A DNA stretch of 64,000 nucleotides, taken from assembly GCF_028389875.1 (NCBI RefSeq), contig NC_084671.1:4981501-5045500 (forward strand). Reading direction: 5' to 3'. This DNA comes from Rhea pennata (taxonomy: Eukaryota > Chordata > Aves > Rheiformes > Rheidae). Below are positions 771-59,100 of this stretch, piece by piece. Made by a program: the position numbers and the translations under genes. The notes under the pieces are model-generated. The model made no database searches. It was not told the origin of the DNA and saw only the letters and a list, made by a program, of their open reading frames with translations. How positions within the stretch are numbered: position 1 is the stretch's first letter; each line of letters begins with the position of its first letter.

Positions 771-4016
<3,246 letters not shown>

Positions 4017-19600: not shown

Positions 19601-22600
19601 CTTGTACAGATGAGGTATGTTGCTGCATTTCTAGGCAGGGGCACACTTTTGTGGGCAGGTTGTAAAGGCCTGAGAAATAGCATTTATAATAGAAAGGGAG
19701 ACACCATCTTAAATATGTCACTTCATTGAAATGGCACATAGATAATTTTTCTTATATTTTATGAGTAATGTATTTGCCATAAAAAGATCTGAAGCCCATT
19801 AATCTGCAGTATGGACTAATGCCTTTCATTTAAAATTTAGAGGAAAAACATTATGTAAAAAGGTCTCAAATTACTTATTTAATTTGGAAAGGAAATATGT
19901 TTTTGGTTTTGTTTTTTTCTGGACAGGTAGAAAAAAGAAGTGCTAAATGTCCTGATGAAACTCTTCCTAGCCTGTGCTCTGCCCACCCTATAGTAAGCTC
20001 AGTTTGTATGACCTGAGGTTTTAGTGAGACCTCTGTGAAATTAATTTCAGAGAGTGATCAGACAATTGTCATTTCAAATTTCAGTATTCAGGATTTGGAG
20101 CCACGTATACTTTTGTAAAGGGACTGAAATTTTCTGATAAGCTTTGAGGTCCTGTGCTTCACTGGCAAAGTACTGGGTACTTTTCTCCACATTGATCTTA
20201 ATTTATTTATCTCTCTTCTTTCAGTATGTAACCTAGGAGTCCAAGTGAAGAAGAAGCTATGCCCATAATATGGGAGGGAGATGCGCTTATGGATCGATAG
20301 GGCATGACTGACTGCTCTGTCACAACTTTACACCACACACCACTGAAACTTAGGCTCCCACAACTGTCATTAAAGATTGAAAGACAACTGTAAACTTCAG
20401 CAGGGACTAGTCAGTGCCCGTAACAACACTGAGCTGCTGCAATTCCGTCAGTGGCACACTGCCAGCGTCTCCACTCTGTCTGAGTGAACCAAGCGAACAT
20501 TATGTGAAATGCATTTTAAAGTGAATAGCTTCACCAGGCTTAGCCGCACAACTTTATAATCACACTTGAGCAGTCCCCATAGCTTTAAAGTTTTAAGAAA
20601 AATAATGCGCAGAAATAGACACAGAAACGGCCTGTCAGCTCCTACAGAGAAAAGTGTCCTTTGTTTTTATATTCACATGCAAACTCAAAGGAGAAGATAG
20701 CCTGGAAGATGGTGTGCAAAATGGCTGAACATTTGCAAATGGGGCAAGAAATGCTCATAAAGGACTTTGATGAACATTGCATAAAATGTGAGTCAGTCTA
20801 AGTATCTATTTTGTTTTCATCCGGTGTTCTTGGATTAAATCATAAGCCATTCAACAGTCATTAATGAAGTGGGAGATCTTTTAAGCTAAAGAAAAACTAA
20901 AATTCAATAGGCAAAATGTGAGTGCAATTTAGGAAAGTGAAGTCGGTGAAAGGAGCACACCAGAGATTCATCTGGATGATCACATATCTTGCCACAGTAT
21001 CACCAGTCTATCTTTAGCCACCTCCCTGAAAGACAGTTCATTGATACCAACTAGATCAGTACAGGAATTTGTTTGATGTGCTTAAGAGATCAGTAACAAT
21101 AGCTCCTAATGTGACTGCGTCGCGAGTGTTTCCTTGGAGACAGTGAATCCATACAGCTCAAGCTGGGATCCTGGCAGGTTACCTCTCTTCAAAGGATGTA
21201 ACACTGTCACTCTGTGCAGGGGAAAAGATGGGAAGATAAGCTTTGGCTGTAGACAAATAGCCTTATGCAAGATGTGAGGATTTTACACAACAGCAAGAGA
21301 TGTCTGAAAGGTAGGAGGGCAAAAGAAGATAAGTAACCGTAGTCATTGTACAGTTGGCTTGACACACTTTGACAACAAAGATAGTGTTACAGGATTGAGT
21401 ATCTTTTTAAAACGTACCAAACTGTGTTGCTGATGGAGGATGTTGTGCAATGAAAAGAGAAAAAATGTGTTTTTTTTTCTTGGTGTCAGTGGCTGAAAAC
21501 CAAAAGACAGAAGATGTCTTCACAAAAATACATAATTTATTATAAACAGGTACAAAAGGCACATGGATTGAGATACGGAATTTGTGTGGTTGCAAGTTAT
21601 ATCTGTGAAGAGCTGCAAGGAATTTTAGAGAAAAATAATGATAAATATACTGGGAATACATGATTATGTTGATAAGACTTGATTATGTTAATTACATCTC
21701 TTTAGGGGGCAGCTTTATAACGCATAAAGCAAGATAATTGATGCTACAGTTAACAGCAGGGATGCGTTGTTACCGTAACTTACAGGTGTGTTTGTCATTA
21801 AATTATGCTCAAAAGGACTGCTTCAAAATATTGCATAATGTCTCATAAAACTCATATTAAAATAATCAAAAGGTAGATAGAAGTAGAGCATGAAAACATT
21901 ACGTCTAAGTCCTCTCCTGTTCTAGAAACACCTGCTCTGTAGCAGCGAATTATGTGCGTTATGAAGAAAGCTCAGCCCAAATTCTGAATTTCCTGGCTTT
22001 TACACTATGTATACAAATTAGATTTGTATCTTAACCCTGTGGTTCATTTCTGTTTATCAGCTTTGGCACATGCAATTGACTGAGACAACATAAATAGCTG
22101 GATCTTTGTATCTTGTAAGCAAACTGTTTGTGGAAGTGGTTTGGACAGATTCATAACCAGCTCTCTTGGAGCCTCTGCAAAATCAGCAGCTCCTGCCTGC
22201 GTATAAGAGCTCTCCACTTTGGAGTTTTTACCATCCTTTGCTTAGTTTGCCTATTTTTTTAGTAAAAGTGGTTATAAAATTCTGCAGATTTAGTACCTTT
22301 AGAAAGATCCACATTTTTCACTTCTGTACTTTTAGGACTCGAAGAACTTGGAGCACTTTGCTGTTAAATATCAGTTTGATCATATTCCCACTAAGGTCAA
22401 CCGCATAAGGGCCTTTCCATCCCCTATGTCCTCTGTTTCAGAGGGATTTGAAGCTGTATTGGGCACCAGAGGAATTCTCACTCTGGATATCCATAAGAGG
22501 TAGTACAGGTATTCTTCATTCAGAAGCCTTGTGGTCCCAGCATGTCAAGAGCATTTCAGATTTACAGGGGAAGTAGCTATTATGCAGTGAAAGTTAAGTC

Positions 22601-24029: not shown

Positions 24030-25631
24030 GAGAAGAGAGAGAATGGAGGAAGGCTATTGCCACAGTGGGTTTCCATTACTGAAATTAATTCCTCCCTCAT
24101 AAGAATTTAGGTCTATGATTTATGATAGCCACCAATTTCTCACTGCAGGCGAAGTGAGAGGAAATGACTCAACCTGGACAGACATCATGAATCTAATTTT
24201 TTTCCCTAATGGCTGACATAATCTAGTGTGCTGCTCCCAGAAGTGTCATTGGAGATTCATATCCAGCCGAAGGGCCTCACAATCAAGATGGAAAATTTTG
24301 TTACTTTCATGTATTGTGTGATCTGTAATTGTTTGAAATTGCATCCTGCCTCATCCATTGCAATTTCTTTTACATCAATTTTGCAGCAAAATAGTGAGGA
24401 AACCAAAGCAAGAGAGAGAAAAGCAGTGTTGCACTTACTCCTTGAGAAAAATCTTTCCTGACATTAGTTAGGGTCCAGCTGGTGCTTATTAAACTCAGAT
24501 GCTTCTGAGATGAAACTTCCTTCCTTCTGTCCCTCCTTCTGAAAGAAATCTCACAACCCCGCTGACTTCACAAGTTCTATCTTTCACATATTGTTCTGGG
24601 ATTTCATATTCTAGTTTCTATCACTAATGCAGAATTTTGCGTGTGGGCTTCTACTGAAAGACCAGAGTAGAAGTCATGTTAAATGGTTTGGCTAAAATAT
24701 TTTAGCCCAAATTTTCAAGGAACTGGGAGAGTGTATCAATGGCTCAGCAGAGGCAGCACCTAGCTGATATGAAGCTAGGTTTTGAAAAACCTTGCAGTTA
24801 CAAACAGTAGTTTGAATACATCCTAATAAAGTGCTACCAAAACATGGATGGATAATAGATCTTCTGAAATATAAAGTACTTCTATATATTTCTGACATAA
24901 TCCTTTGATATGATCGCATTTAACATACAGCAAAGCAGAAGCAAAGCAAATACCAAGGCAGGGGTAAGCAAGGGTTCTTAGTGCACATTCACCAAATGTA
25001 AACCCTCTTTTCACAGGGTTGCTGCATGAATGCCCACTGATTCTAACAGCATGCACACATGAAAATAGTCTGTTTGCCTCAAAATGTCTAACTGTATAAT
25101 CATATACATGGTGATGCTGAGCATGCTCCACTTCCTTTAAGTCACCGATGATTTATCATGGTTGTTCTAATCTCATTTAAAAAAGCATAAAGCAAGAAGG
25201 GAGGAGTAGTTCTGTATGTCAATACTGGTCTGTGCAGTCAATATGCACTTCCAGGTAAAAGCCAGGCAAAATATAGTATGTATTTTTGATAATACTTAAA
25301 AAAGGCAAAACAAAATCATAGAAGGTGAAAAAAATAGTCTGTTCATTATTATTTTCCTATGACTCCATAATCTTGAGTTCTATACTATATTATATTTAGC
25401 TTGTCTTTTATACTAAATGTAAAGCTTTCATTACTATCCTCACTACACAATTTTAAAGCCACATTTTTATTCTCCATTTCTACTCCTGAATATGATTGTT
25501 TTAATCATACTTTCTGACAAGCTCTCACTGAGCTTGCACAGTAAAAGGCAAATTATCAAACTGGATGAGTACACTTACTAAGTTAAAATTATTTTTCTAA
25601 AGTATTCCGTGGGTAAATTTCTCAATTGTAG

Positions 25632-25712
25632 CTACCAGCCTATGAGTTATGCAATATCTCTGAAGCACAAATGGAGAAATCGCCCTAGCTGGGGTATAGA
25701 AGATATACCTTC
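25632..25712 (+). CDS. LRRC77: LRR gene exon 1 of those seen
   Basis: The acceptor is TTTCTCAATTGTAG and the donor is CCTTC/GTGAGT. The exon is 81 nt, entering and leaving in phase 2. It encodes [20 protein letters not shown] then GIEDIP. It may hold the start codon at 25642 (CCTATGA, a weak context), or the true start lies in an upstream exon not found. It is the least certain exon of the gene. It is supported because its exit phase and frame fit the next exon exactly. Confidence 0.65.
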
Positions 25713-28700
25713 GTGAGTGCTCTCAAGCAATGAACTAGCAAAGCGGATGACTTGATGGTTCTATCAAATAAAGTTTAGCTCTTCTTTGGAGGCTTCGTGT
25801 TCCACTAGAACTTACCAAAGGGATTGAAATAAATATCTATAAGGCAATGGTTGAAGTGTCTTTTCACACAAACTGGATCCACAGAAGCAGGGCTATGCAG
25901 GATAAAAGAGGCATATCGTGATATTGAAAAAGCTCAATTCTTCTTCTTGTCCAAGGTTGAATTTTTCTAACAAACTGGCAGTGAGTTCCCCTTTCCAATG
26001 TTTGGACATATCTGTCAGAGTCTCATATGCATAAGTAAATGGTATTTTGATGAATGGTGCTATAAAGGGACTGGGGGGATTACTGTATCTGTGGTTTGAT
26101 CTCAGAATCCTGTGACTGTTTTCCAGTAGTATGTCTTAGCCCTTGTTTTCCTTGTTTCCTATTATTATAAAATAGTTTGCATTTCTTTAAACAGAATGAG
26201 AATCTATTACTGGTTTAAAATCTTCTCTCTAGTTCCTCAGGTCTGACTACAAGCAATCAAAGATTCTGTAAGTCCTGTTTGTCCTACTGCTCCATCCTAA
26301 GCAATACACATACTGTTCCACCAGTTTCATCGCAGAACAGAGGACCCATCAGTCAGAATTGTGATTCACGACTATCTTCCCCAGTAAGTGCTTGGCTTAC
26401 CAGTCTGGTTATGAGTTTATAGAACGGTGACGCTGACGAAGAGTAACTAAGGCTGTAATCACTTCCTCAACTTTGAAACTGGTTATGTCTTGCCTCCCTT
26501 TATCTTCCAAAGCTAGATCAGATTATGAACACGATTATATGACAAGATGTCAGCAGTGGCAAGAGACTTGATTCAATGGCCCAGGAAGCCCGTGAGCACT
26601 GTGCCCTTAGCTGGATGCAACTGGCAAGTGTCTAAGTCCTGAAGTGGCTGTGTACATTTGCTATACCACAGCAAGGACTGCTGTGAAAGGCAACAATAAG
26701 GATATTCTGTGCCTTTACAAACATAAAGCTCTTCTGGGCTTGAGCCAGTACATACAAGCTATTGTGAAATCAGGATGTATGTGGTAAACTATCCCCAACC
26801 TGTGAAGCCTGGCAACATTTCCCAGCTTGTGTGTGTGTGTGTACAGCTCAGCCCTTGCTGGAGGGGGTGAGCCAGAGCTGTGTGCTCCCTCTCTCCTCTG
26901 CCTTCAGCTCAACCATTGTGGTTTGCACTGACAGGAATGCTGGAAATGTGAGCAGATGGTTATCTGCAATACACTGAGAGGTTCCTCCACTGCGAGCAAC
27001 CGTGGGGCCAGGTCTCCTGGGCATGAAACAAATCACACCTATCTCACAAACTACAAGCAGAACTAGAGTGTTTGCTTCTTGCTCCCTTCTGTGAGACTGA
27101 TGCCTTGGAAATTACAGAACAGGTTTTACTGAGAAAGCAAAATGGGCAGAAACCTCATGTTCTCGACTAAAGTGGCAGGTTTTCAGTGTTTAGATTTCAT
27201 GCCTGAATTTCATTCAGGGTATTTTGTATGTGAGTTTGTCCATAAATTTGTGTTTACATGCATATACATACACAAATGCATGTCATTACATCCTCACTTC
27301 TGTATATGATTTTGCTGTTCACCAGATGGTATTAAGGCAGAAAACATTGTGGAAACATGCACGAATGTTATTTCTGCTGGGGTAAGGCCAGAAATAAGAA
27401 AAAAATTATTGACGGAAACTGGAAGACCTTAACCCATTCGTCTGTCTTTCTTTTGCTTCTTTAAGCTTCCTTCTGATTCCTTCAAGTATCTCAACTGGTG
27501 TGACTTAGAGGAACATGATGTTCGAGGAAATCAGCTCCGTTGTCCCCGAGTAAGAGAAGGTAAAGATGAAAAAGACACATTCATGCTAAGCCTTACTTTA
27601 TTTATCTAAGGGTATGTTGTTAAACATTAGAGATGAAATCAGAGTTTGCGGTTGTTTTGAAAAGGGACAGGGTTCCGTCTCACATGGGAGATATTTACTT
27701 TTTTTAATTACTAAGAAAATACCCTTAAGCCAGAATTGTAATTTTTAAATTTTTACCAGATTTTTACCTTTAATGTGGTGTTTATTATCTCTCTCAGAAG
27801 TTCATTAACATTCAAATAATGTTCAGAATGCTGTACACATACATCAACTAAGAAACTGAGAGTGAGATCCAGTCCAGCAAACAATATACACACATTTTAT
27901 TTTAAGCCTGAATTGGCCCAAGAATAGCCTATAGGAGTATTCGGGAATGTGGAATGAAAGTTTAAAATAAGGTATTTGCATGTTTGCTACTAAATGGAGA
28001 AAAAGGTCCGTGTTGTCCTTACTTCAGCTAGGAATTTAAATGTGTGCATAGTTTTAAGCATTTCAATAGATCCATTGACTTTAAGTCCTCAGTAAGTGTT
28101 GTTTTAAAAAGTCATACTCAAAAAGTCATTCCTATTAAGCCCAGTTGCAGGTTTTGTCAATGGCTCAGGAATTACAAACACATTCCTTTATCAGGACAAT
28201 GAAAGGGTAAGTACATATCTGTTATATAATCTTACTTACGGCATATGAAAAAATATAGAGGAACAATATCTTAAAGCTCAGATTCTTAGGCCCTACCATT
28301 AAAAAAAAAAAATTGTATTCTGAATTCTAGAGGAAATGTCACTTACTAACCATGTGCCCAAACATTGTGACCTTAGGTTGTTTGCTAGATTACGGGCCCA
28401 GAAAAGGTAGAAAATCTTCAGATTAATTTACCTCACAGAAGCCTGGAAATCTATGCAGCTAAAATATTGTATATATTTCTTCATTTCAGATATATTCCCA
28501 GCCATATATATTATCTTTCAGCAAGTAACTAAATGCCAATTCCACATCACATGTATTATTGCAGATCTTTTTTTCTGAGCAGGACCTTCAGAAGAAGAGC
28601 TATTTTTCAGAGGAGAAGAAGATACTTTGAAAAAAAGAAAACAAGTAACTGATACAGAGAAATGGCAAAAGAAACTGCAAGAGAACTGGGAAAACTGTGC

Positions 28701-31700
28701 TGTAAAACTTTTGTTAACTCTTCTCATTACCTCTTTGCATTGTAAACAAGCTGAACATATAGTGCAGGGGTGGCTCCTGACAGCAGTTTTCAAGCTGAAG
28801 TTGGCACCATGACGTAAAATAGAACATTTTTACAAGCCCTCTACAAGGAATAAACTTCTGCCTTGTGATAAGGTTTCATTGTGCTTGGACATATAAGAAC
28901 TTACCCGCTTAGTGCCTTCCTCAAAGAAATCTGTGATAGGTAGATCGTTAGGGAATGGCTTAGTTTCATTTTAGCTCTTCCGCTCTCTCCTCACCAGCCT
29001 GAGCAGTTCTTTTTGGTTTTGACTGGAGGAACAACATTACTGCTGGTTCTGGTCAGCAATAAGTTATGACCTCCCTAAGATCAAGAAAGAGGCAAGGTAG
29101 TAACTTTGGAGCACTAGATTTCAGTGTTAGATGGATCTGTCTCTCCCTTTGCATAAATACACAAAACAGACTAGGGGAACACTGGTGCCTGGCTGCTGCT
29201 GGTCGCTTCTGCTCCAGAGTTCAGAAGCCACAACCACTTAATATTTCGTTCTCCAGCCAGAGCACACACACAGGGGTCCCCAGTCAAAGGGTAAGGCTGG
29301 CCTAGAAGTAAGATTCATATTTCAGGCATGAAAGACTGTGTGGCAAAAATGCAAAAATAATGGTGAAGGAAAGACTCTACTAAAGAGTAGAGAAAAAAAA
29401 TAAGACTAGTGTTAAGATGTCTATAGAGAAAAATAGAATAACACTCCCAGATACAGCTTCACGCAAATGACTGGTGTTTGATTAGAAAAAGACCAGCTTT
29501 TTCTACTGTACCATTTCAGATTAACCTTATTTTACATAGGGATAGGCATTGCTATCCTTACAATTGCAAGGTGAATTTGAAACAACTGTTTGTTTTTAAG
29601 TGGATATAAGAGCAGCATAATAAAACAGATTCATCTTTTAACTAGTTCTAACATAGAAAAGATTTAATAATATAGTTACTAGAATGCAAGGAAAAGATTA
29701 ATTGGTTTCTTTTATTTTTCCCTCCCCAGGAACTGAACCTCTCATTTCAGGACCTGGGAGATCTTTACCAGGTGGAAAACCTCAATAGAATTCTCCGAAG
29801 ATTAATTCGGGTGGAAAAACTTTGGCTGGTGGACAATTCTTTGACAGACCTCAGTGCCATAAGGCTGCCAAGGTAGACAAAAAAGTCCTATTTTTATTCT
29901 TATCCACTATCATAGAAATCAAAGCTGTTACTTAGGCAGCATCTGCAGCAGACTCTTGGGAACTGCCAAAATATGATATTGTTTTGGTATTATACTGAGA
30001 CTCTGTCATTGTATTGCTATTCTGAGTTCATGTCATCTCTAAGTTGAAAAATACTCAGTAAGGTAGACAGATCGTGTCCCCTTCATTCTTAGTGTTTCAT
30101 GCATCTCATTGAGCTCAGTGATATTTTTGCTAAAAGCGGAAGTTGTTGAACACAGATGAAGGAATGTGTATGCTGAGATGGTGCAATATGATGCAAGCAG
30201 AGAGGCCAGGTATGATCATCACAACTGTATTATTACAGTGTGCTCTTGCTACTATGTTGTCTTATGACTGGATATATGGAAAGTTGTAATACTGAGAATG
30301 AGAGTAATGAAATATCTATCATATAATATAAGGAAAGTTGAGAGTATAAATTATAGGAGTCTGATCTTGCAGTCCTTGGTTAGGCAAGAATAACACAAGT
30401 GTAAAACTAGTGTGAAAACAGGTCCTCAGGAATCAAATTCTTGTACCTCTCATTGAAAACACTAAGGTGCTACGACCTTAGTTGATGAAGAGCCATCCTT
30501 ATGTTGGTTTACAGGGATATGCTGTTGTAGGTGTGATCAGTGATGTCATTTGCTTTGTACTTTACAGATGCAAAGAACTAAATGTCAGTAAAAATCACTT
30601 TACATCCTTCAAACAGTTGCCAAAGATACCTCAGATCCAACACTTATCATTGGCTGAAAATAACATTATGATGCTAAATGGAATATCAGTCTTGAGAGAT
30701 ACTCCACTTGAATCCCTTATACTCAAGAGGAATCCCTGTGAGTTTCAAGAAAACTACAGGCAACTGTAAGTTTTACCATCTCATGGTCAAGAAAAATATA
30801 AATAAAAAAATGTTTATAGGGGAGCATAGAAGGAAAAGGATCTCAAATACTATAAGCTCTCCCAGGAAGCCTTTTTGTCTTCCTCTGGTACCAACAGCAT
30901 ACTCCAGAAAAATGGGCTGGCAGGCTGGTATCTGAGAATAGTCACAGAATATTCAGAAACTGCCTAGGAGTCTCTGTAATGACATGAATGTCAGTTCATG
31001 AAATAAACTAAGTCCATGAACCAAGTTTAGAAACATTGAGTAGGGTAGATAAATGAGATTCCCTTTTATTAATAGAAGTTACCTTTTACTAAAACTCCTT
31101 TCAGTGTCATTACATCACTCACGGGTTATGAAAGGAGTCTAAATTACATTATGTGTCAGAGAGAGAATCAGAAGGAAGTGTTGAAAGATGGGAGAGAAGC
31201 AAGAGAAATCTACTACCTTAATTTATTTTTCTGATATTCTCTTCTATTTCTGCCAGCACTGTGGGAGTCACACTGCCTTGAACTCCCCACTCAGGATATA
31301 TATAGGTTGCAGACAGTACTGTGTGGCATAGATTTAACTGAGCTGCCTCAGGTATGGTCTATTCATGACAGAGTAGAGAACTCAGGGGAGGATAATTTAT
31401 TCCAAGTTTCATGCATATTTTGACACTCACATCCCTATTCCGTTCTTCCCCAGCTTTATTGACTCCAAAACCTGATAGCCAAGAAACATTGCATAAAGAT
31501 CAGAAAGGAGTATTAAGCATATCCCTTCTGAACTGCTCAGACTCTACATTGCTGGGTGTTTTTCCCCACTATAAACAGTCTAGTCTTCCATCTAAAGCAA
31601 GCATTGGTGATATTTCTCAGATAAACCCATTCCTCCCGCATGAGTGTAAGAAGTCCTCTCTTCCTGGGAGAAAAAAAAAAAAAAAAAAAAAAAAAGAGAG

Positions 31701-32864
31701 AGAATCTTTCTAATGAAAACCTTTCTGAATTTTCTTTAGGCTTTTTCCTTCAGTCTAGTAGGCTTCTCTTTGACAGTGTGATGGTGATGCTTGTGCATTT
31801 TAAAGATAAGCAGATAGACAGATAGATATCAAAGTGAAAGTTTTAAAAGTGAATTTGAAATAACGGATTTCGTATTTTATTCATATATCAAAAGGCCCAG
31901 TAGAAGAATTGGTATTAATCTCATTTTAACAATTGTTAATTATGTTTATGCCCCCGATCCTGCCAGTTCTAAAGGCAATTAAATATATATAACTCTTATT
32001 ATTTTCACTGTGTTGGAAGACATACAAATTGATTTTCCAGCATAGGTATAGCCCTGATTTACATGCAGGGACTAGGCACTGGAGTACACGGGCACATGCT
32101 ATAGCAAGTAGGCTAAGGCCTTGTGCACTGCTTATTGAGGCTAAGACTCTATCAAATTCCTCTTCTGGAGGAGAAAACAGAAAAGTGTTAACGACCAAGG
32201 TCAAACCTGCTGAGATGCTGCTTAAATGGAACTGTTTTACGAGGTAGAGTCATTCATTTTGGAGCGTTTGGCATAATGTCCACAAAACGAGGTATTTCTT
32301 CTATGAGAGTAGCAAGAGTACAAAAAATTATGTATAGAGCCTAATTTCTCTGTCACAGAAGGATAAAAGTTGAGCTAAGCTTCTTAAAATTTGAATCTTT
32401 GCTTTTCAGCAGTCTAGGAATTTCACTCTGGGCTAACCCCTGTTTTATGTTAGACTTCTGGTTTGGTTCTTGTCTATTAAAAACGTGGATATCTATAGCT
32501 TTTTAATGAGTCTGAAGATATAGAACTTGTACAACTGAGTGAAAAGAGAAAATCATTAGCTCTGTGATCGGTTCTTTGATAAAGCTCTTAGGTAAATTCT
32601 GTACCAAATTCTAAATTAAAATTTCCAACAACAAAAACATATTTGGAGTATGTTTGAACCCACTGCTTCGTTTTTATCAACGTCTATTTTGATCTCAACA
32701 CTTTCCAATAATTCACCTCTGATTTGTTATTTTTCTTTTGTCTCTCTTTAAGTGTATTTTCCAGTTTGCCAAACCTGAAAACACTGGATGGTGTCCCGCG
32801 ACTACCAGAGGACTGTTCACCCCCAGAAAACAATTTTCTTTCCAAAATGTGTGCTATACTGTAG
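25632..32864 (+). CDS. LRRC77: SDS22-type leucine-rich-repeat protein (probable LRRC77 counterpart), 7 exons
   Basis: Seven exons (25632-25712, 26233-26383, 27466-27559, 28151-28206, 29730-29872, 30568-30765, 32753-32864) splice into one open frame ending at TAG. Phases match at all six junctions. From the first ATG in the first exon (25642) the protein has 274 residues. A longer N-terminus is likely, because that exon starts with an acceptor and the ATG context is weak. Residues about 24-105 are polar with a Cys cluster (C36, C39, C43) and are not recognised. Residues from about 125 hold repeats of the form [42 protein letters not shown] and [11 protein letters not shown]. The end ([17 protein letters not shown]) is a typical LRR cap, as in SDS22, U2A' and DNAAF1 relatives. 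Such proteins are usually intracellular protein-binding scaffolds; no partner can be named. The link to human LRRC77P rests on recalled position only. The structure is intact, with no stop or frameshift. Confidence 0.85.
26233..26383 (+). CDS. LRRC77: LRR gene exon: Cys-containing linker
   Basis: The acceptor is TCTTCTCTCTAG and the donor is CCCCA/GTAAGT. The exon is 151 nt, entering in phase 2 and leaving in phase 0. It encodes a Ser/Asn/Cys-rich segment with [10 protein letters not shown] second possible acceptor (TCCTCAG, giving a start at 26241) is eight bases downstream. It would shift the phase at the junction with the preceding exon, so I prefer 26233. Confidence 0.78.
27466..27559 (+). 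CDS. LRRC77: LRR gene exon: acidic linker
   Basis: The acceptor is CTTTCTTTTGCTTCTTTAAG and the donor is GAAG/GTAAAG. The exon is 94 nt, phase 0 to phase 1, and encodes [20 protein letters not shown] and onwards. A competing donor GA/GTAAGA sits ten bases upstream (GT at 27550). Its use would shift the frame and reach a TGA at the start of the 29730 exon. Confidence 0.86.
28151..28206 (+). CDS. LRRC77: LRR gene exon: 56-nt linker exon
   Basis: The acceptor is CCCAGTTGCAG and the donor is AAAGG/GTAAGT. The exon goes from phase 1 to phase 0 and encodes [19 protein letters not shown], leading straight into the first repeat. Confidence 0.86.
29730..29872 (+). CDS. LRRC77: LRR gene exon: first repeats
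   Basis: The acceptor is TTTTTCCCTCCCCAG and the donor is CCAAG/GTAGAC. The exon is 143 nt, phase 0 to phase 2. It encodes [18 protein letters not shown] and then [20 protein letters not shown], which has the LxxLxLxxNxL spacing of leucine-rich repeats. Confidence 0.9.
30568..30765 (+). CDS. LRRC77: LRR gene exon: central repeats
   Basis: The acceptor is TGTACTTTACAG and the donor is CAACT/GTAAGT. The exon is 198 nt and symmetric in phase 2. It encodes [28 protein letters not shown] and [13 protein letters not shown], then QENYRQL. Two to three full repeats of 22-23 residues are visible, with the conserved Asn at its usual place. Confidence 0.92.
31671..31695 (+). repeat. Poly-A tract of 25 bases in an LRR gene intron
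   Basis: A pure A run followed by GAGAGAGA inside the last intron of the LRR gene. No retrocopy body is recognised to its left. Confidence 0.85.
32753..32864 (+). CDS. LRRC77: LRR gene terminal coding exon: LRR cap
   Basis: The acceptor is TTTGTCTCTCTTTAAG. The exon encodes [20 protein letters not shown] and a short polar tail, ending in CAIL and TAG (32862-32864). LPNLKTLDG is the hallmark of the LRR cap that closes SDS22-type domains. The -CAIL end resembles a prenylation box (see findings). Confidence 0.9.
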
Positions 32865-33150
32865 CACTGCATTTTTGTATGATGACAGATGGATGATGAT
32901 AAGGTGATGCTGGAATCACCTTATTTAAAATAATTGATACATTTTGTGTATACAACTTACCGTTTTTTTTTTTGATCAAGGATGTGTTGAATCAGAAATT
33001 CTGATTCTAATTCTTTTGCATGTACTTGCTGATACCACAGATTTCAAGTAAGTACGGGTACATGACATGTAAATAGGATATAATATGTATGCTGAGTGTC
33101 ATGAATTTGGTGCATTAAAAATATCAGGTAACTTTCTTGTCTTGGAATTC
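32865..33150 (+). other. LRR gene 3' UTR (end uncertain)
   Basis: This is AT-rich sequence after the stop. The first poly(A)-signal-like hexamer is ATTAAA at 33114-33119. The end is a guess based on that site. Confidence 0.4.
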
Positions 33151-37880: not shown

Positions 37881-39137
37881 TATTATGTTTAGTCTTTTTG
37901 ACCTGAACACTGAGCTGGTCTATGGATGCTCCTATCAAGAGGAACCGATGATGGAAGTCAGATGTTTCTTTGATGTAATTTTAATTTTCTTCATAAAATG
38001 TACAAAGTTCCATTTTTCTGAACACAGGGAAAATCAGAGGAGACTGCTCTGTGCTCAGGGATCCAGACCCTTTTCCAGTCAGTACTTAGCTCTCACCTTT
38101 TTTCAGGATTATGCATATCTGAGTCCTACTCTTTGGGGTTTTATCCTGCCTCAGCTCAGTTACATTGAGAACTTGAAGCTGCTAACAGCTTCGTCATGCC
38201 GGGCGAGTGCTCCCAATGAGCACCAACCTCTAGCCCAAGAGGTCCCTGGTTGTGCAGGCTGGCTTTGCTGCAAGCCTTTCATTGCCTGCCAGGTCTAGGC
38301 GTTCTCCTCTCCTTGTTCCAGTCTCTGGTCCAGCCACCACTTCTGTCCCAGCTCCAGCTTCAGGTCCGCCACTCTGTTTACTATACTCAGTATTAGGTAG
38401 GCAGTACAAAAATCACTGGTGAAGCATGGAATTGTGCGGATTTAAATAAATCAGTCAAATGACGTCTATTCCAAAAGAGATATCTCTATTTAATCTTTAA
38501 AAAGAAGAGGACAGATGACCAAACCAGGGTATAATATTGTAGAGAAATAATGGAAAGCTTATTTGTTCAACATGGAAGACATTTAAGATCAATAATATCT
38601 AAGTGACAAAGAATAAGGACCTGTTATGTTTCTTCACTCAGCTTAATATTTTACCTCGGATTCTAACTTGAGGTATTGGCATTTTTTTATCTTTTCCTGT
38701 ATTTTCTCTCTTACTTTAAACATTACAAGATTCAAGCTAAAAATCACAGCTCAAGCTCCAAAGTATAGATATATGTATCAAGAGAAAAAGTTAAACAGTA
38801 ACAACAACATTTCAAAACAACATTTCACTGCAGAGAGAAGTATCTAAAGTGCTTATGATGTTCTATGCCACAAAAATCAGATAAAAGTTCCTGAAGCTTT
38901 TTACTATGATGGTGTCACACTCAAGCACTCTGAACCCAAAAAAGCCTGCAGCAGCAGTATGATTGTTATATTCAGTCTCTAATATTTCATCAACTTGAAT
39001 ATGCTAAAATAATTCCAGGGCAAATTTCTCTCCAGGTATAATTGCATTTATTCCAGTAATGTTTATTTATACTACAGATGCCTATAAGCTATTAAAAAGT
39101 CTATAATTAAGTCTGTCCAAAATCTGCCTTTAAATTT

Positions 39138-39776
39138 GTGGTTTTCACATCCCAGTGCAGTGCGATGCCTGGATGCCTGAAGTCATTCAGGTGCTGGACG
39201 CAATATAGTCAGGCTGGCGCAAGAGGCTTTAGCTCAGGCAGGGCCTCTGGTTTTTGTGATGGAAGGTGTCTGAGTTCAAGCATGGTGCGTGGCACTGCCG
39301 AGTTCTGCACAGAGCTTTCTGAAGGGTATAACAGCATGTGCCAGTCTCTGCTAGCTGTACAAGGAAAAGGAACTTTTTTTGTCAGCCCTGCTGGAAACTC
39401 GGTATTTGTTATTTCAGCTCCAAACTCGCATTACTGTGAAGCTGTGCTAGTCCTTGAAGACCAGACATTTGGGAATTGTAATCCTAATGATTGTCGCAGA
39501 CCTGTGCAGAGGGCTGTACTAGAAAGAGGTGATTTCTGTGCCGAGGAAGGGGCTGGTGCGAGCGTGTTTGCTGGAGAGGAACCAGCCTGGGTGGTGGGGA
39601 TAAACAGGCGGTCAGGAGGCCGAGGAGTGCGTAAACCTGGAAGAGAGGAGGAAGTTCTGGACAGAGCCTGGGCAAGGGCTGGGAAAGGTTTTGCTGAATC
39701 AAAGCTAGAGAGGGGCATTTCGGCAGGTGCCTGGCAGGGTAGTTCCTTGGTGGGTTTGGAAGAGGTACTGTAGTAG
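39138..39776 (+). other. GC-richer patch with long overlapping open frames, probably non-coding
   Basis: A 211-codon frame on + (39138-39773, stop after) overlaps a 187-codon frame on - (39431-39994). Neither translation contains a motif I know, and neither has a clear promoter or splice structure. GC-rich DNA lacks stop codons by composition, so both frames can be chance. An old, unrecognised transposon fragment is the main alternative. Confidence 0.35.
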
Positions 39777-47914: not shown

Positions 47915-50039
47915 GTTAAGGAAACTTCCTCCCAAACAAATCTCAATGTCTTTTCAGGAATAACTAGGTTTGTGGTTTCTCACATTTACCACTGAGTCAT
48001 AACACTTTTACAAAGACATACTTCAATTACAGCATTATTTTTAACAAGTTTCATTTAAAAACCCTCAAAATACTGATCTTGATCAGAAAGATCTCAACAT
48101 ATTTAGTTTATTGCACCATCTTCCCTAATTTACAGACAAATCAATCTGATACCATGGCTATCCAACACGTCAGTAAAACAAGAAGTAGAGCCATATCCAG
48201 ACCTGCTGGAGCATTTGGAAGCCTAAAGAATGTAAGGGAGTGCAGCTGTCTCTTCTTTGCCAAATAATGTTATCATTCTTGAGTGAAAGAGTCAGATCTG
48301 AGTTAGACCTTTATGAGTTTCTAAATCTTAACATAGGAAAAAGGCAATAGTTGGAAATTTGAAACTCTGGAGCTTATCTATGGGAGGCTTTTGCCTAACA
48401 TTCGGGTAGACACACTTCAAAACAACCTGTTTCATGATGTAATTACTTGCATACTCTCTCTATATATCTGTATAATTTAAAGGTAACACAAATTGTTCCA
48501 CCAACACTAGAGCCAACGAAATCCAGTGCCATGTGGCTTTATGTTGTCCATCCCTCCACCTTTTCTAGCACGGTAACCCTGGCTATGTCTCCTTTTATTT
48601 CACTTCCACCCCGTATCTATGGTTCCTTCCATCTGCCCCTGTTCCCCATCCAGCACTCAGTAATTATACTGGTGCTGAACTAAGCTTGTGCTGCCTGGCT
48701 GGTTTAATAACTGTGATGTCCAATACTTACCATAAGGTCACTTGTAAGCTTTCAAGTGTGTCAGCTGCAACAGACACTTGCAAAAGTTCATTGCTAACAC
48801 GTGCTGATTTTTCCCATGGTGAAACAGCAAACTCCTTTAATCTTTTAAAACAAAAAATATACTATTTCTTTAATGTCAGTTTTCTGACACCGGCCCTAGT
48901 TAGCTGTGACTTAAATGTAGCAATTTTCATTAGCTCCACTATTGCTTCTAATAGATCATGCTGGATGTGTGCTGAAGTGTATCTGTATATAGTCCATCTC
49001 TCGTCTGTGTTCTGCACCGACTTTTAATTGAATATTCTCATTCCCTGTATGTCTCCCCAGATATTGGCTTTATTCATTGACATTACAATATAAAACTGTT
49101 AGTAAAGCTAAATTCTTGTAGGATTTTTGGGGGGTCTAAGGGCATTGTTTGGTATTATAACCCATTTCTCAGCATAACATATAGGGACCTTCACATTTCT
49201 AGCCTGTCACAATAAATGACCTGAAAATCAGCTCCCTGTAACGTAGGAGGGTTGTTTGACTAGCAGTATCTACTGTACACAAACTGATCAGGGCTTCTGC
49301 GATTGCGAGTAGCTTGCACAGGACTGACCTGAGTTATTCACCATACTTACTACCTTAGAAGGGCTTCCAGCTCCTTGCAGGGAAGATTGAGTTTCTGTTT
49401 TCTACAGATCAGAGAAAAACTGCCTGTCTTGCTGTTATCTTTGACATGAATAGAATAATGTGTCCCAGGTAGTCTGTGAATTAATTTCATAATCTTTTTA
49501 CACAACTTTGGCTGTTTGTTCTGATAAACTGCTAACAATATCATTTTATCATTATTTAAGCATGCTGCCTTTTTCAAAATGTCATCTTCGGCTTTTTTTT
49601 GTTGTTTCTTTAATGTATACCAGTGTATAAAATTCTTTAAACTTTAAGCCTTCCCTTAAAGCTAATCTTTTTGTCTTCCACAATTTATAGTTAAGTTCTT
49701 AATTGCAGCTTGCAGACAAATGTAAAAGGGTGGGCTTCAACATGAATATAAACTCTTTCAGGAGTGTAACTATGGTCATTTATTTGAATTATAAGCCAAA
49801 ATCCCTGATAAGAAGGGAGATGTTTCCACTAGACACTATTTAAATTCATGCTAAAACCCAAAATCGATCGAAGAGAGACTAATCTAAACACAGGTCCTCC
49901 AATTTGTTTTGTCTTCTGATGAATGAGATCCCATCATCTTGGCTTCGTGACAGAGAAGCGTGTCTCACACGGTGTGTTACATGGTAGATATTTTTGCTCG
50001 TTTGAGGAAAGAAAGGTTGTGGAACCAGGAATAGTTGTG

Positions 50040-50310
50040 GAGCTGGGGACTATGCCCCTTCGCACGGCTCCTCCTGGCAGGAGGTAGTGCGCGGCTGTTC
50101 TCGGCCACGTGGCCGTGCTACGGGTGCTCGTCCAGACTTTGACCCAGTCCAGTAAGTGCCGATCTGCAAATCACGCAGCAGGCAGACAGCGAGGCAGGGC
50201 CAGGGAGAGAGCCAGCGGCCGTGGTAGCAGTGTTGCGGCAGAGGAGTGGGAGGAAGGCACCCCTTGGGTGAGCCTCTCGTGAGACTTGAGGTCACGCAAG
50301 CATGCAGGGA
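50040..50310. other. CpG-rich patch with a palindromic E-box
   Basis: A GC-rich stretch with many CpG steps contains CGGCCACGTGGCCG (50102-50115), a perfect 14-base palindrome around CACGTG, the site used by USF, MYC and related bHLH factors. No coding exon is recognised. A candidate enhancer or promoter. Confidence 0.4.
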
Positions 50311-52810
50311 ACAGTAGTTGTTTTATCATGCTTGTGACTTGCTTTGCAGGTAAGGCCTGACTTGTGGCACACCAGGAGCTGAGCCCTGATCCTTAGCAAT
50401 GATATTTTTGTTTACGCAGCAATTTTTCAGCAAACGCATACTTACATTTACCTTCTCGTTCTTGGAAAAGGGCACTTAGAGAAGTCACCGAACAGCTTGT
50501 CGTACCTCCGATCATTGCTCAGAGTGACTGATTGCCATTCTGGAAGCACATTTTCAGAGAAACAAATGAACCGAGAGCTTTGGTAGCAAGGGAGAAATCT
50601 TATAAAGGCACTGAGGGCTGAGCTGTTTCCTGATGTAGTCGGTTGGAGTCATTCCTTTTACTTCAAGAAGCTTCTACCAGCCTGTAGGACTTCCATGTTT
50701 GTGGAAGTCAAAGTTGCCACTCGCATTCTTTCTTCAGTTCAACTGCACAGTGATTGTGGTAGATGATGGGCAGCAGGAATGGAACTGGCTGACTTACTCT
50801 GAAGGCAACAAGGTATTTCTTATGAAGTAAAATAAGCACTGGGGAGAAGGGATTATGTCCCAGCTATCGGAATTATGTAGGTGGCACCTTGAGATGGATG
50901 AGTTAGCACAAGTAGGTATACAAGCAAGAGACTATTCATATGTCAGCGCTATTGACTGGGAAGGCACTATGTTCCTAGTGTGTTTTTAGACTCTTACCCA
51001 CCTAACTTGAAGCAGCAAAGCTGTTTGTGAGCATCATGTGGAAGTCTGTAGGTATATGAAAATGTTACGAGTCATGTCAATTAGTCACTGACAGCAGGTC
51101 TATGAAAATAGCAGCTCTTTTGGCCAGCTAGCTCTGTTGTGGACATTTGTTGGAGAGTCTGCTCCTATGGACAGACTTTGAAGGTAACGGGAAGGCATTC
51201 TGAGAGATTGTGATCATGTACTTTGGTGACCTACATAGCACTTAGGAAAATGTCCTGACGCTTTCACCTCCTCTGAAGTTTTGCTCGAGTATTAGCCTGT
51301 GCAGTTGAAATGTAGATATGGAGTGAAGGAAACACGTAGGTCCTAGATGACATCAGAGGTCAAAGGGAGGCCAAGAATTCATACAAGCAACTTCCATAAG
51401 TACCAGTGAGAGATCAGCACGGGGTCAAAAGTCTATTGTTTTTTTTTTTTTTCACTGAAAACCCAAATTTTTATGTGCTTGAAAACATGCAGAAGATGAT
51501 AGATACAGTTTAATATTGCTGATTTTGATCAGAAGATACAGCAGGACTCTAAGGCCAATCATCTGATTTGTGTTATCAATGTTTCTTCTTGAAAACCTTT
51601 TCCAAACCATTTGCATGGCCTTGTCTCTGTTTCCAAGATAGATAAGGTTAGCAGGTTTTTAAAAATGATAAAAATCATTTAAAAGTGATTTGAGGTCCGC
51701 AGATGAAAAACTTTGGGAAAAAGAAACATTTATTAAAGAAATTATTGTGTTTTCAAGGAATCACAGGTTACTGATACTGACATGCAAGTAAATTTTCTAT
51801 GGTGTCTTTCAGCATGTAGGAACAAGTAAAAGCATTGCTAATCTTGTCAGCTGAATCCCTGATAACTCGCTTTAATATGCTTAAGTTCTAATAAAAGTGT
51901 AAAAATATTGTCCTAGTAGATATGAAAAAAGCCAGTTTTTTTATTCCCCTTTTAAATGATGATGATGAGAAAATAATGAATAATTTTGCATTTGAATCAT
52001 CAAGAACTATTAAAATGAGAACTGAGGAAGGAAGAGGAAAGCTGTGTGAAGTCTGATAATGTGTCAGGTGTACTGAATAGACCTTTTTATCTTGCTCTGG
52101 ATACACTGCTTTGGCCTTCTTATTCCCTTCATCCTGCAAATATTTTGGCTGTAATAATATAGTTTCTGCTTGTAGCATTGTAGCAGAAAGAAGTACTATT
52201 CATGCAGTAAACACGTCTTATGTGCTCAGACTTGAAAAACCAAGCAAGGGTTGTTTTTAGCAATGACCACTCCTTTGTCACAAAAAACTGCACCATATCT
52301 TGTCAGATGTAGTCTGTACTTTAATGGCAAATGTATCTTAGAGTCAGGTTTCACTTCTAATCTCACTGATTTTTCTAACATTTGCATTAGAGATGTCTGG
52401 CTTGTTCTTCAGCTTGGGTTGGATCAAACCTTCAGGTAGCATTCAGGCATTTACTATATTTGGACAAAATCTGGATATAAAATGTGTATTTGCATGCCAC
52501 TGTTGGGAACCTCCCTGCTGCCTGGTGGTGCAGTTTCTAATGCCCTGATGTGCACAGCGTTGTTAAAGGAGCTAGCATTTTAGTGAGGGTGAGTTGTGGG
52601 GCCATAATATTCTCGCTGAGCCACTGCAGGATTTCCTGACTTGCTGTGGAATTCGTTCTGTAAGTATTACTTTTTTTCACTGAGAGTTAATGTTTCCTAC
52701 ATTTTATGGCTGGAATATGCTATTAGGAGCCTCTTCAATAATCTCTAATTTACATATTTATTCTTACAGGCACTAGGACTTCTCTCATGATTCCTGCTCC
52801 AAGCCCAAGC

Positions 52811-56130: not shown

Positions 56131-59100
56131 CTGATTTAAAAAAGTGAGATTCAGCAGAACTGACAGTTTTCTTAATTTTGTGGAGATTAAATGAGGTTAA
56201 AGAAAAGGATAAGTGACTGTTCTTATTGCTGATGAAGAAAAACAGGAGGTTAAAGACTGAAAGATCTCCAAGAAGCCTGAATCAATGCAGGGGTGGAAGA
56301 ACGAACAAAAGGGAACTGGGATAGTTTGAAGTTTTAAAATCTACAATCAAAAGCAAGCTACAACAATTATGTAATATCACTAATACGATCACAGCTGTGG
56401 TACATCTTTTGAGTGTTACCATATCATTAGGTTTGTGGATTCACACAGTACTTACATTTTCATCATTTTCACCATATGGCTCTTCAGGATTGTGTTCCAG
56501 TTCTCTTTTCTTCTCTTCAGTTAAATCTTCCTGGATCTGCAAAGTAGAGAGATGTTCTGTACACTAATTTTCTTTGAAGTGTACAGAAAATTGGAAAAGC
56601 ACATACATTTTCACAGCTATGCTTGAATCTTCATTCTGAAAGTAAACAGGTGGAGAAGGCAGGGAGAGGTTAAAGGTGGAGCAGGAAAAAAAAACAAAGC
56701 AAAAAGGAAATTCAGCTGATTTAATTTTTAACTACAATTTTCAAACTCTCCTCAGCAGCTAACACATTTAGATTTTGATTTCATTTTGTAACTTTAAACA
56801 TGCAACATTTTCTCCTTGTCCTTTATAATGACATTGTCATAACACAGAGTCATTACTGACACTTAAAACCCACTGTGGACTGCCTGACCTATGGTTCAGT
56901 TCTGATATGTGATACAGGTATTTATTTGCAACTTCCTCCACATTTTCCCAGCAGTTGACTGATCCTGCCAACTGCTCCTGGAATATCACAAAAGAGCAAG
57001 TGGGATTGGGGAGTGAAGAGTAATCTATTCCAACCTTCTCCTTGATGACAAATTCACACTAGATCTATTTTCCAGATGTTTTAGTCTTGACCTCACTTTT
57101 CTTACCTAACAGACAGCCCTCTCCTTCACTTCAATTTTATTTTTAAGTGCAAAGTTGGATGAAGCATGCTTTGTAGAAGCACACTTGATTATCTGTTGGA
57201 GAATGCTGGACTTAGTCCAAATGGTGCCTGTAAGTTAGGTAAGATGCTTTCATGAAGCCTTATCTTTGTCCCCATGGAAAACGGCCATTTCATCTGGTTG
57301 GGAAGCATTTACTACCCAGTGCTGCCACCTGTGCCTGTCACAGCATGACACATGGTGAGGATGTGATTGCTACTTTTGACAGGAATTTCCCCCTGTACCA
57401 GCTGCTGTTATATTCTCAACAGCAGCAGCAAAATTGAATTCTTTCTGTATTACCCTCCATCAGTAGCAGGAAAGTGTATTTAGCAGTTGCTTCCAACAGG
57501 AGGGAAAGCTGCTTGTGACAGAGTTGTTAGGGGTTCAATATTGCTGCCAGCAGGAGAGCAGCTATCAAACTTGGATCACTTCAACGCATACATGGAAAGA
57601 TTTGAACAACAGCAATGCATAGTATTGCAACCTACTGAAGAAATTATTCCTAATTATAACAAATTAACTCATTTTGATTGCTCATTCAATCACTGCTCAT
57701 GTTTAATATTTCCAGTTGGCATACTGGTTGTAGTCCTTTATGAAATGCACAAATTATTTCCTATAAGCCAAAGAGTAATTGCCAAAGGCAAACTATTCAT
57801 AGTTTCTAACATCCTGGTTTGATTTAAATAACTATCTTGAACTGGTAGAGCAGCTAGTCTTGACAATAGGCTGGAATAGGTGTTCATCATAACGCAGTAA
57901 TGAACAGCCATTTCCATGGCTTTTTGTAAACAGTTATTACATATGAAGAAGTAAATAGCAATTGACTAGGTGTATGTATTGAAGAACTGCAGAGCAGCAT
58001 ATGCTAGTGCACGCATGATTAGCATGCTATTCAGTGTATGATAGAAGAAATCCTTCTCCCCTCTTTTCCTATAGTTCAAAGCAGTATGCCAACAGCTTCC
58101 CCACTATTTGATTCCATGAATAGTAAGGGCTTAAATAACTTGGATCACTTAGAAGGAGCACAGATAAATCAAAATCAGAGCTAAAGAAAAAATAATTGAC
58201 CAAGAAAGCAGCTTGCTCAGAACAGCAGTGTGTGATTAGAAATGCAAAGTTAATGAGGTTTGCAGTAACTTTCAGAGGGCTTGAGGTTTTCAGAAGTTTC
58301 TTTTTGAATTGTGAATGGCTTAATTTTTTTCAATTAGTGCACAATTAATATTCAGTTACATAGAAGATTAATGGATTGCAGCATACAAGCATGAGTAGCA
58401 CTAGAAAACATAATTAACATTGTATCAATAGACAGCAGACTAATGGCGAAAATTTCCTCGGTTTCATAAAGTCAGAAACTACCACTGACAAAGTAATTTG
58501 GGTTCATTTTGCAGTTACAAAAGACCAATGTTGAAAGTTAATGGGGATCTGTTATGTTACCCAGGTCCACATGTCTTATGCCCATTTTCTTTCTTACCTC
58601 TTCTTCTCCCTCTTCCTGGTACTGCTCATCCACATTATCTTCTTGCTGGTCAGGATTTCCGGCCATCTGCAGAGAGATTATGTGAGAATTTAGTTCCGTA
58701 TGCTTGCCTATTGATTTTACAACACTGTCCGTTAAAGCTGTGTGTTCTGGAACTGAAAACTCTGCCAAGGTAAAGTAACTATAATAGCATAATATACTAT
58801 AGTGAGTTCATTAGCCTGACTATGTTAACCTGGCTACACAATTTAAAACTACTTTAAGCGTATGTATATATATATTAAAAAAAAAAAAGATAGATAATAA
58901 AATCATTTCACAGAATAAAGCAAGATTTTCATACTAAGCAGAAAAACAATGAAATATTCATGCCATTAAAGACCATAGCCGTAAAAATACAGATTCTCTC
59001 TGCCTAGAGGAGTTTACAGTTTAAATGTTCAGAATTTGTTGGAATGCCGTTAGAAGGAAAGTGATACCACTGCCTGCAGTTGGTTGAGTGAGTGTTAATA

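Follow-up and report, generated by a model that had tools for sequence, protein, structure and literature searches.

The window, the whole 64,000-nucleotide stretch of Rhea pennata DNA analysed here, contains the last exons of SERPINI1 on the + strand (2107-2208 and 3936-4013) and, on the - strand, GOLIM4, for which four exon matches at E<1e-3 lie at 58.6-63.9 kb and weaker ones reach down to 56.5 kb. Both genes were located by tblastn using human proteins as queries. Between them, on the + strand, seven exons (E1-E7) can be joined into a chain with GT-AG boundaries at all six introns, and the predicted product of 274 residues runs from a start ATG at 25642 to the stop TAG at 32862-32864. The synteny of a leucine-rich repeat (LRR) gene flanked by SERPINI1 and GOLIM4 is thus present in this genome.

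A preliminary description of this DNA had proposed such an intact LRR gene at this place. Homology of E5-E7, the open frame and synteny bear this out, and the LRR gene itself is probably real, whereas E1-E4 rest on reading frames and splice-like sites. Joining E1-E7 confirmed the 274 uninterrupted residues, with an LRR cap near the C-terminus that is followed by a tail. The six GT-AG pairs and the open frame also stood, but the splice sites are of uneven quality: those of E1 are weak and the E2 acceptor is outscored by a neighbour. The Pfam, PDB, single-copy and openness results given below concern E5-E7, the LRR part, and not E1-E4.

E5-E7 encode an SDS22-type LRR domain

E5 (29730-29872, phase 0 in and 2 out) encodes LRR 1 (25 residues) and LRR 2 (21 residues), and its acceptor ranks among the best 0.05% of AG sites across the window. 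LRRs 3 and 4 and the start of LRR 5 (11 residues) are encoded by E6 (30568-30765, phase 2 in and out). The terminal coding exon E7 (32753-32864) supplies the LRR cap (21 residues), the tail and the stop TAG, with SKMCAIL at the C-terminus. Joined in phase, the three exons give an uninterrupted run of 150 residues that comprises about five SDS22-type leucine-rich repeats and the cap. The coding frame of this join has the terminal stop only, compared with nine and six stops in the other two frames, and E5 is open in the joined frame only. Among random local draws of noncoding segments of E5-E7 size, an open triplet arose 50 times in 200,000. E5-E7 are strongly supported as coding exons.

Pfam LRR_4 matched the spliced product with E=7.5e-7 and 29.7 bits, where the cut-off is 27, placing the tandem repeats of about 22 residues above the threshold of an LRR profile. 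The LRR_9 match covers residues 151-250 and crosses both E5-E7 junctions, at 28.1 bits below its cut-off of 30.5; LRR_NXF1-5 and LRR_8 also stayed below the Pfam cut-offs. Single exons gave less: E6 alone matched LRR_NXF1-5 (E=4e-4) and LRR_4 (E=4.9e-4), E5 alone matched LRR_4 (E=0.0097), all below the Pfam cut-offs, and E7 alone had no Pfam match.

A PDB search returned 92 distinct matches at E<=1, the best 60 of which were listed. Among these, LRRC23 (1.6e-8), the CFAP410 N-terminal domain (8axj, 1.2e-7), ANP32B (4.4e-7), PP1R7/SDS22 (1.2e-6) and LRRC51 (2.6e-4) align over E5-E7, and the best stretches of the LRRC23, CFAP410, ANP32B and PP1R7 matches cover the E6 part. In the PDB matches the alignment over repeats and cap carries on across the E6-E7 junction as far as residue 250-262, and the alignments with LRRC23, CFAP410 and ANP32B span a 17-residue stretch of the C-terminal cap. 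Two further analyses were uninformative. The codon-usage score of E6 was equalled by 46% of noncoding stretches in a test that is itself weak (2 of 10 control pieces reach 5%), and an AlphaFold model of E6 only, run without an alignment, had a pLDDT of 58 and no LRR fold, and so lends no support.

The 5' exons and chance assembly of exon chains

E1 (25632-25712), which carries the putative start ATG, is the weakest exon. Its acceptor is poor (-1.7, a score that 25% of the window's AG dinucleotides reach) and its donor mediocre (-0.1, top 11%); an in-frame TAA lies 5' of it at 25579-25581, and no CpG-rich promoter was found near it. The acceptor of E2 (26233-26383) scores 1.0 at 26233, compared with 8.5 for a rival acceptor eight bases on at 26241, which keeps the reading frame in another phase that E1 does not supply. 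E3 (27466-27559, phase 0 in and 1 out) has both sites in the top 3-4% and a codon score surpassed by 9% of open noncoding stretches, and is plausible but unproven as an exon. E4 (28151-28206, phase 1 in and 0 out, 19 residues) is uncertain, with an acceptor of 3.2 and a good donor, AGG|gtaagt, of 6.1 (top 0.3% of GT). An equally uncertain rival with identical phases, E4' (28583-28644, + strand, 21 residues), has an acceptor of 4.4 and a donor of 0.8; with E4' in place of E4 the frame stays open and the product has 276 residues. Neither Pfam nor the PDB gave a match to E1-E4, nor did Pfam to E4'. Codon usage was set aside as a test of E1-E4, being too weak: only 2 of 10 SERPINI1/GOLIM4 exon pieces pass at 5%. 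This 5' part probably forms an extension, poorly conserved or disordered, with a provisional exon structure.

The preliminary description had held that so many matching phases would be very improbable as a coincidence. When exon and intron sizes were kept close to the observed ones and every site had to score at least as well as the weakest in the chain, seven-exon chains of at least 825 nt occurred in 5 of 60 local noncoding stretches, which overlap and come from both strands, and in 4 of 300 dinucleotide shuffles, so the statement was too strong. When introns were allowed down to 80 nt, 7 of 16 noncoding stretches contained a chain, as did 1 of 20 shuffles. Even within the gene segment, chains built from other exons beat the E1-E7 chain in splice-site sum. 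Because these nulls yield comparable chains, phase matching was dropped as the main argument; across the six introns it is modest evidence for a gene.

Copy number and neutral decay

The LRR gene is single-copy in the genome, the best match to the LRR part outside the locus having E=0.0014 and 31% identity. Introns are present and the E5-E7 frame and GT-AG sites are intact, with neither the disrupted frame nor the lost introns of a pseudogene; the gene is neither a processed copy nor derived from a repeat. A possible poly(A) signal, ATTAAA at 33114-33119 (+), lies 250 bases past the stop and is not significant, since hexamers of this type occur at 1.81 per kb in the window. Searches for relatives gave 3 pattern matches among viral contigs and 39 among bacterial and archaeal contigs, none of them confirmed, as was to be expected.

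At an avian rate of 1.9e-9 per site per year, the modelled neutral decay of E5-E7 has a half-life of about 6 My, with 5% survival at about 25 My. It is therefore unlikely that the gene died more than about 25 My ago.

The C-terminal CaaX box and a proposed function

The predicted protein ends in CAIL (32850-32861, + strand), directly followed by TAG, and so has the C-aliphatic-aliphatic-X form of a CaaX box, here read from one sequence. The strict pattern C[AVIL][AVIL][LFIM] stands at the end of 2 of the 1249 ORFs in the window, the CAIL one included, and a broad pattern at the end of 20 of the 1249. According to the accessible text of PMC9141697, CaaX boxes with X = L, I or F direct geranylgeranylation, and by this rule CAIL is of the geranylgeranyl type. 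The CAIL end of this LRR protein is a new observation, suggesting that the protein may be lipid-anchored.

We consider it likely that the locus holds a functional or recently silenced single-copy gene on the + strand with a 3' SDS22-type LRR domain, and propose that its product is a tethered adaptor. If the gene is spliced and expressed as predicted, CAIL would, judging from the motif, be geranylgeranylated and hold the LRR domain on a membrane. The face of the LRR domain could, given its fold class, serve as a small surface on which one partner protein docks, and the protein would act as a membrane-tethered SDS22-type adaptor.

The product could instead be an LRR adaptor of cilia or centrioles, comparable to CFAP410, LRRC51, LRRC23 or DRC3, with expression in testis and ciliated cells, a reading that is possible if rather doubtful. 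The axonemal and basal-body proteins LRRC23, CFAP410, DNAL1, DRC3 and LRRC51 are all among the best 60 of the 92 PDB matches, but such matches reflect the general SDS22-type fold, ANP32, PP1R7, U2A' and a bacterial internalin scoring similarly, and an orthologue-level match to solved axoneme chains is absent among those 60. The LRR domain of CFAP410, a protein of the basal body, has five repeats (PMC11865075, accessible text). RFX X-box-like sites are not enriched here, with 3 on the + strand and 4.0 expected from base shuffles.

A young pseudogene, with LRR exons still open and its promoter or 5' exons lost, seems unlikely. E1-E4 are poorly supported, the E1 sites are weak and the vicinity of E1 lacks a CpG-rich promoter, as this reading predicts, yet weak 5' exons are also expected if the true first exons lie elsewhere than modelled. 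A mammalian pseudogene at the same place, if the preliminary description is right about it, would mean that loss of the gene does occur; here, however, E5-E7 retain their frame and splice sites, and repeats and cap can still be made out at their positions. It is highly improbable that the seven exons were chained by chance where there is no gene: chains as long do occur in noncoding stretches (5 of 60, or 7 of 16 with looser introns), but LRR homology at E=7.5e-7 crosses both E5-E7 junctions, and chance openness of E5-E7 stands at the 50 in 200,000 given above.

LRRC77P and a possible loss in mammals

Like the preliminary description, we take human LRRC77P, a named LRR-containing pseudogene, to lie in the same SERPINI1-GOLIM4 interval. 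The fuller proposal, a geranylgeranylated, membrane-tethered SDS22-type adaptor that is single-copy in birds and was lost in at least one mammalian lineage, with LRRC77P as its remnant, is tentative and on balance rather improbable. If the gene is real and expressed, human-centred annotation would have missed a protein gene of which human presumably keeps only a pseudogene. A real gene would also make a clean case for asking what the loss of a small LRR adaptor costs, and the CaaX end would be a direct biochemical handle on the protein's location; as a gene type it would be ordinary.

Two papers, in their accessible parts, give no position for LRRC77P: it appears there as an lncRNA or as an entry in a gene list. 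One mouse paper, in the text available, names "Lrrc77" as an expressed marker, which, if not a slip for another symbol, argues against a pan-mammalian pseudogene. For a 10 kb region in cattle, the available portion of PMC5070821 names GOLIM4 and SERPINI1 alone. Our literature search found nothing on SERPINI1 together with GOLIM4 in chicken and likewise nothing on gene loss, and the titles and abstracts that name a "repeat containing (protein) 77" concern WDR77.

Comparison with known LRR proteins

CFAP410 (C21orf2) resembles the predicted protein in its about five short SDS22-type repeats and in the cap run N-P...YR..V...L..L..LD, and its 34.5-bit single-domain match covers residues 149-259 of the predicted protein. 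Its own LRR domain is N-terminal, with a helical bundle at the C-terminus (PMC11865075, accessible text), whereas that of the predicted protein is C-terminal and followed by the CaaX end. An orthologue of CFAP410 was rejected on this layout, the LRR domain here ending 20-odd residues before the C-terminus.

LRRC51 has its LRR domain in the C-terminal part and the cap NP....YRQ.V, with 33% identity in a 109-column alignment with a human sequence. The human sequence used in this alignment lacks a CaaX end, and the likeness is that of a fold class rather than an orthologue. The ANP32 family and PP1R7 (SDS22) share the SDS22-type repeats and the LRR cap YR..VF..LP.L..LDG; unlike the predicted protein, both lack a CaaX end and a 5' extension, PP1R7 has more repeats, and ANP32 carries an acidic tail.

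FBXL2 is an F-box protein of another LRR class. It too is an LRR protein with a C-terminal CaaX box (CVIL), the geranylgeranylation of which sets its membrane localisation (PMC9141697, accessible text). What it shares with the predicted protein is a working principle rather than family membership.

Genomic setting of the probable LRR gene

All seven exons proposed in the preliminary description (E1 to E7, + strand) could be recovered; each of the six introns has GT-AG ends, and the 274-residue product runs from the ATG at 25642 to the TAG at 32862-32864. The genome (G000; 1.27 Gb in 180 contigs, the window being C9:4981501-5045500) was searched by tblastn with human SERPINI1 and GOLIM4 proteins; three off-target matches (E 1.4 to 5.4) were left out of the placement. 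SERPINI1 lies upstream on the + strand: L057 contains four of its exon matches and L058 one. Within the window it is matched at 710-826, 2107-2208 and 3936-4013 (+), and the match at 3936-4013 has HDFEEL as its final residues. On the - strand, GOLIM4 is represented by four matches with E<1e-3 that fall within 58628-63890; weaker matches in collinear order are at 56471-56512, 60600-60659 and 61171-61212. These positions bear out the proposed location of the LRR exons between the two genes and render the LRR gene convergent with GOLIM4.

Serpin matches also occurred in two dense clusters of the same genome (C2:101040192-101223863 and C5:53850811-54000422), several with in-frame stops. The longest open frame of the window (39111-39773, +; 220 residues stop to stop) is G+C-rich and overlapped by two long frames on the opposite strand. 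The most CpG-rich patch (49801-50400), with an observed/expected ratio as high as 0.77 and a G+C content as high as 0.61, falls in the LRR–GOLIM4 interval outside any recognised gene and may represent an enhancer or a distal promoter.

Secure LRR-encoding 3' exons

Joining E5 (29730-29872), E6 (30568-30765) and E7 (32753-32864) gave 453 nt in which the coding frame has the terminal stop alone and the remaining frames contain 9 and 6 stops; 50 of 200,000 random triplets of size-matched noncoding window segments were open in this way. In Pfam, the spliced product matched LRR_4 above the cut-off (E=7.5e-7) and LRR_9 below it (residues 151-250). A PDB search returned 92 matches at E<=1, and the best 60 of these 92, all of 37.7 bits or less, include LRRC23, CFAP410, ANP32, PP1R7, U2A', internalin B, DNAL1, DRC3 and LRRC51; such matches indicate a shared fold class, not orthology. 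One matched chain, 8axj, comes from T. brucei and is the N-terminal domain of CFAP410, an LRR domain of five repeats (PMC11865075). Exons E5–E7 are the secure part of what is probably a real gene of an ordinary LRR class.

The LRR part matched its own three exons in the genome and then distant LRR genes only (best E=0.0014, 31% identity; 18 matches), and the 5' part likewise matched its own four exons, all further matches being at E=0.44 or weaker (9 matches). A search that skips very common words placed the 4.1 kb at 25600-29700 at a single site and gave no repeat copies with E<=0.001.

Chance exon chains and the putative 5' exons

Six matching phases had been held very unlikely to arise by chance, an overstatement in the light of the null sets. 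Under a strict null (exons 56-210 nt, introns 500-2100 nt, sites no weaker than the weakest observed), dinucleotide shuffles produced a seven-exon chain in 25/300 cases, reaching at least 825 nt in 4/300 and a site sum of at least 39.77 in 0/300; overlapping noncoding stretches on both strands did so in 19/60, 5 and 2 cases, respectively. Under the same settings, no seven-exon chain was present on the opposite strand of the gene segment. With introns allowed from 80 nt, chains appeared in 13/16 noncoding stretches (7 of at least 825 nt) and in 13/20 shuffles (1 of at least 825 nt). Because chains arise in these nulls, and other-exon chains inside the gene segment exceed the proposed one in site sum, phase matching is only modest evidence and homology carries the case for the gene.

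Splice sites were scored with vertebrate frequencies. The acceptor of E1 (25632-25712) is poor and its donor mediocre; the donor of E4 (28151-28206) is very good and the acceptor of E5 excellent. When the 137 candidate internal exons between 24.0 and 32.9 kb were ranked by site sum, E5 came 5th, E4 12th, E3 (27466-27559) 26th, E6 30th, E4' (28583-28644, a rival to E4) 40th and E2 (26233-26383) 53rd. A much better acceptor for E2 lies at 26241 but is mismatched to the donor phase of E1, and E4' can replace E4 in phase, yielding an open 276-residue product. Neither Pfam nor, at E<=10, the PDB yielded a match to E1–E4. Given the weak E1 sites, the better E2 acceptor, the E4' alternative and this lack of homology, the N-terminal part should be treated as putative only. 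No upstream ATG occurs within the open stretch of E5 in any of its frames; therefore, if the gene is real, at least one further coding exon exists.

An X-box-like GTTTCCTTGGAGAC lies at 21128-21141, ~4.5 kb upstream of E1; X-box-like matches showed no enrichment (3 vs 4.0 expected). Inside the E6–E7 intron, a candidate exon at 31257-31351 (+) is open in frame and flanked by strong sites; it enters in phase 1 and leaves in phase 0, which is incompatible with E6 and E7.

Age of a possible silencing

The estimate takes an avian neutral rate of 1.9e-9 per site per year. At this rate, with the indel share set at one tenth by assumption and E5–E7 plus five inner splice sites as the target, intactness would decay with a half-life of 5.9 My, leaving 5% at 25.5 My; the 5% point moves to 40.4 My at 1.2e-9 and 19.4 My at 2.5e-9. 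On account of this half-life, the intact E5–E7 speak against an old pseudogene, not against recent loss.

LRRC77P, as in the preliminary description, would be a human LRR pseudogene near the SERPINI1–GOLIM4 interval, in which case the gene may have been lost in mammals. In published work, LRRC77P figures among the lncRNAs of a prognostic signature (PMC8291889) and is entered in a table (PMC10799395); for mouse, Lrrc77, which may or may not be a valid symbol, is named as a marker gene (PMC9745188).

Predicted C-terminal CaaX motif

The predicted product ends in SKMCAIL. Among 1249 stop-ended window ORFs of at least 30 codons, a strict CaaX pattern ends two, this product and one CLLI, and a broad pattern fits 20. 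As a predicted prenylation signal, found after looking and in one sequence, CAIL is suggestive. L, I or F at position X of CaaX proteins leads to geranylgeranylation, which keeps FBXL2, an LRR protein with a CVIL terminus, on membranes (PMC9141697). The predicted product, with its CAIL end, resembles FBXL2 in combining LRRs with a CaaX terminus.
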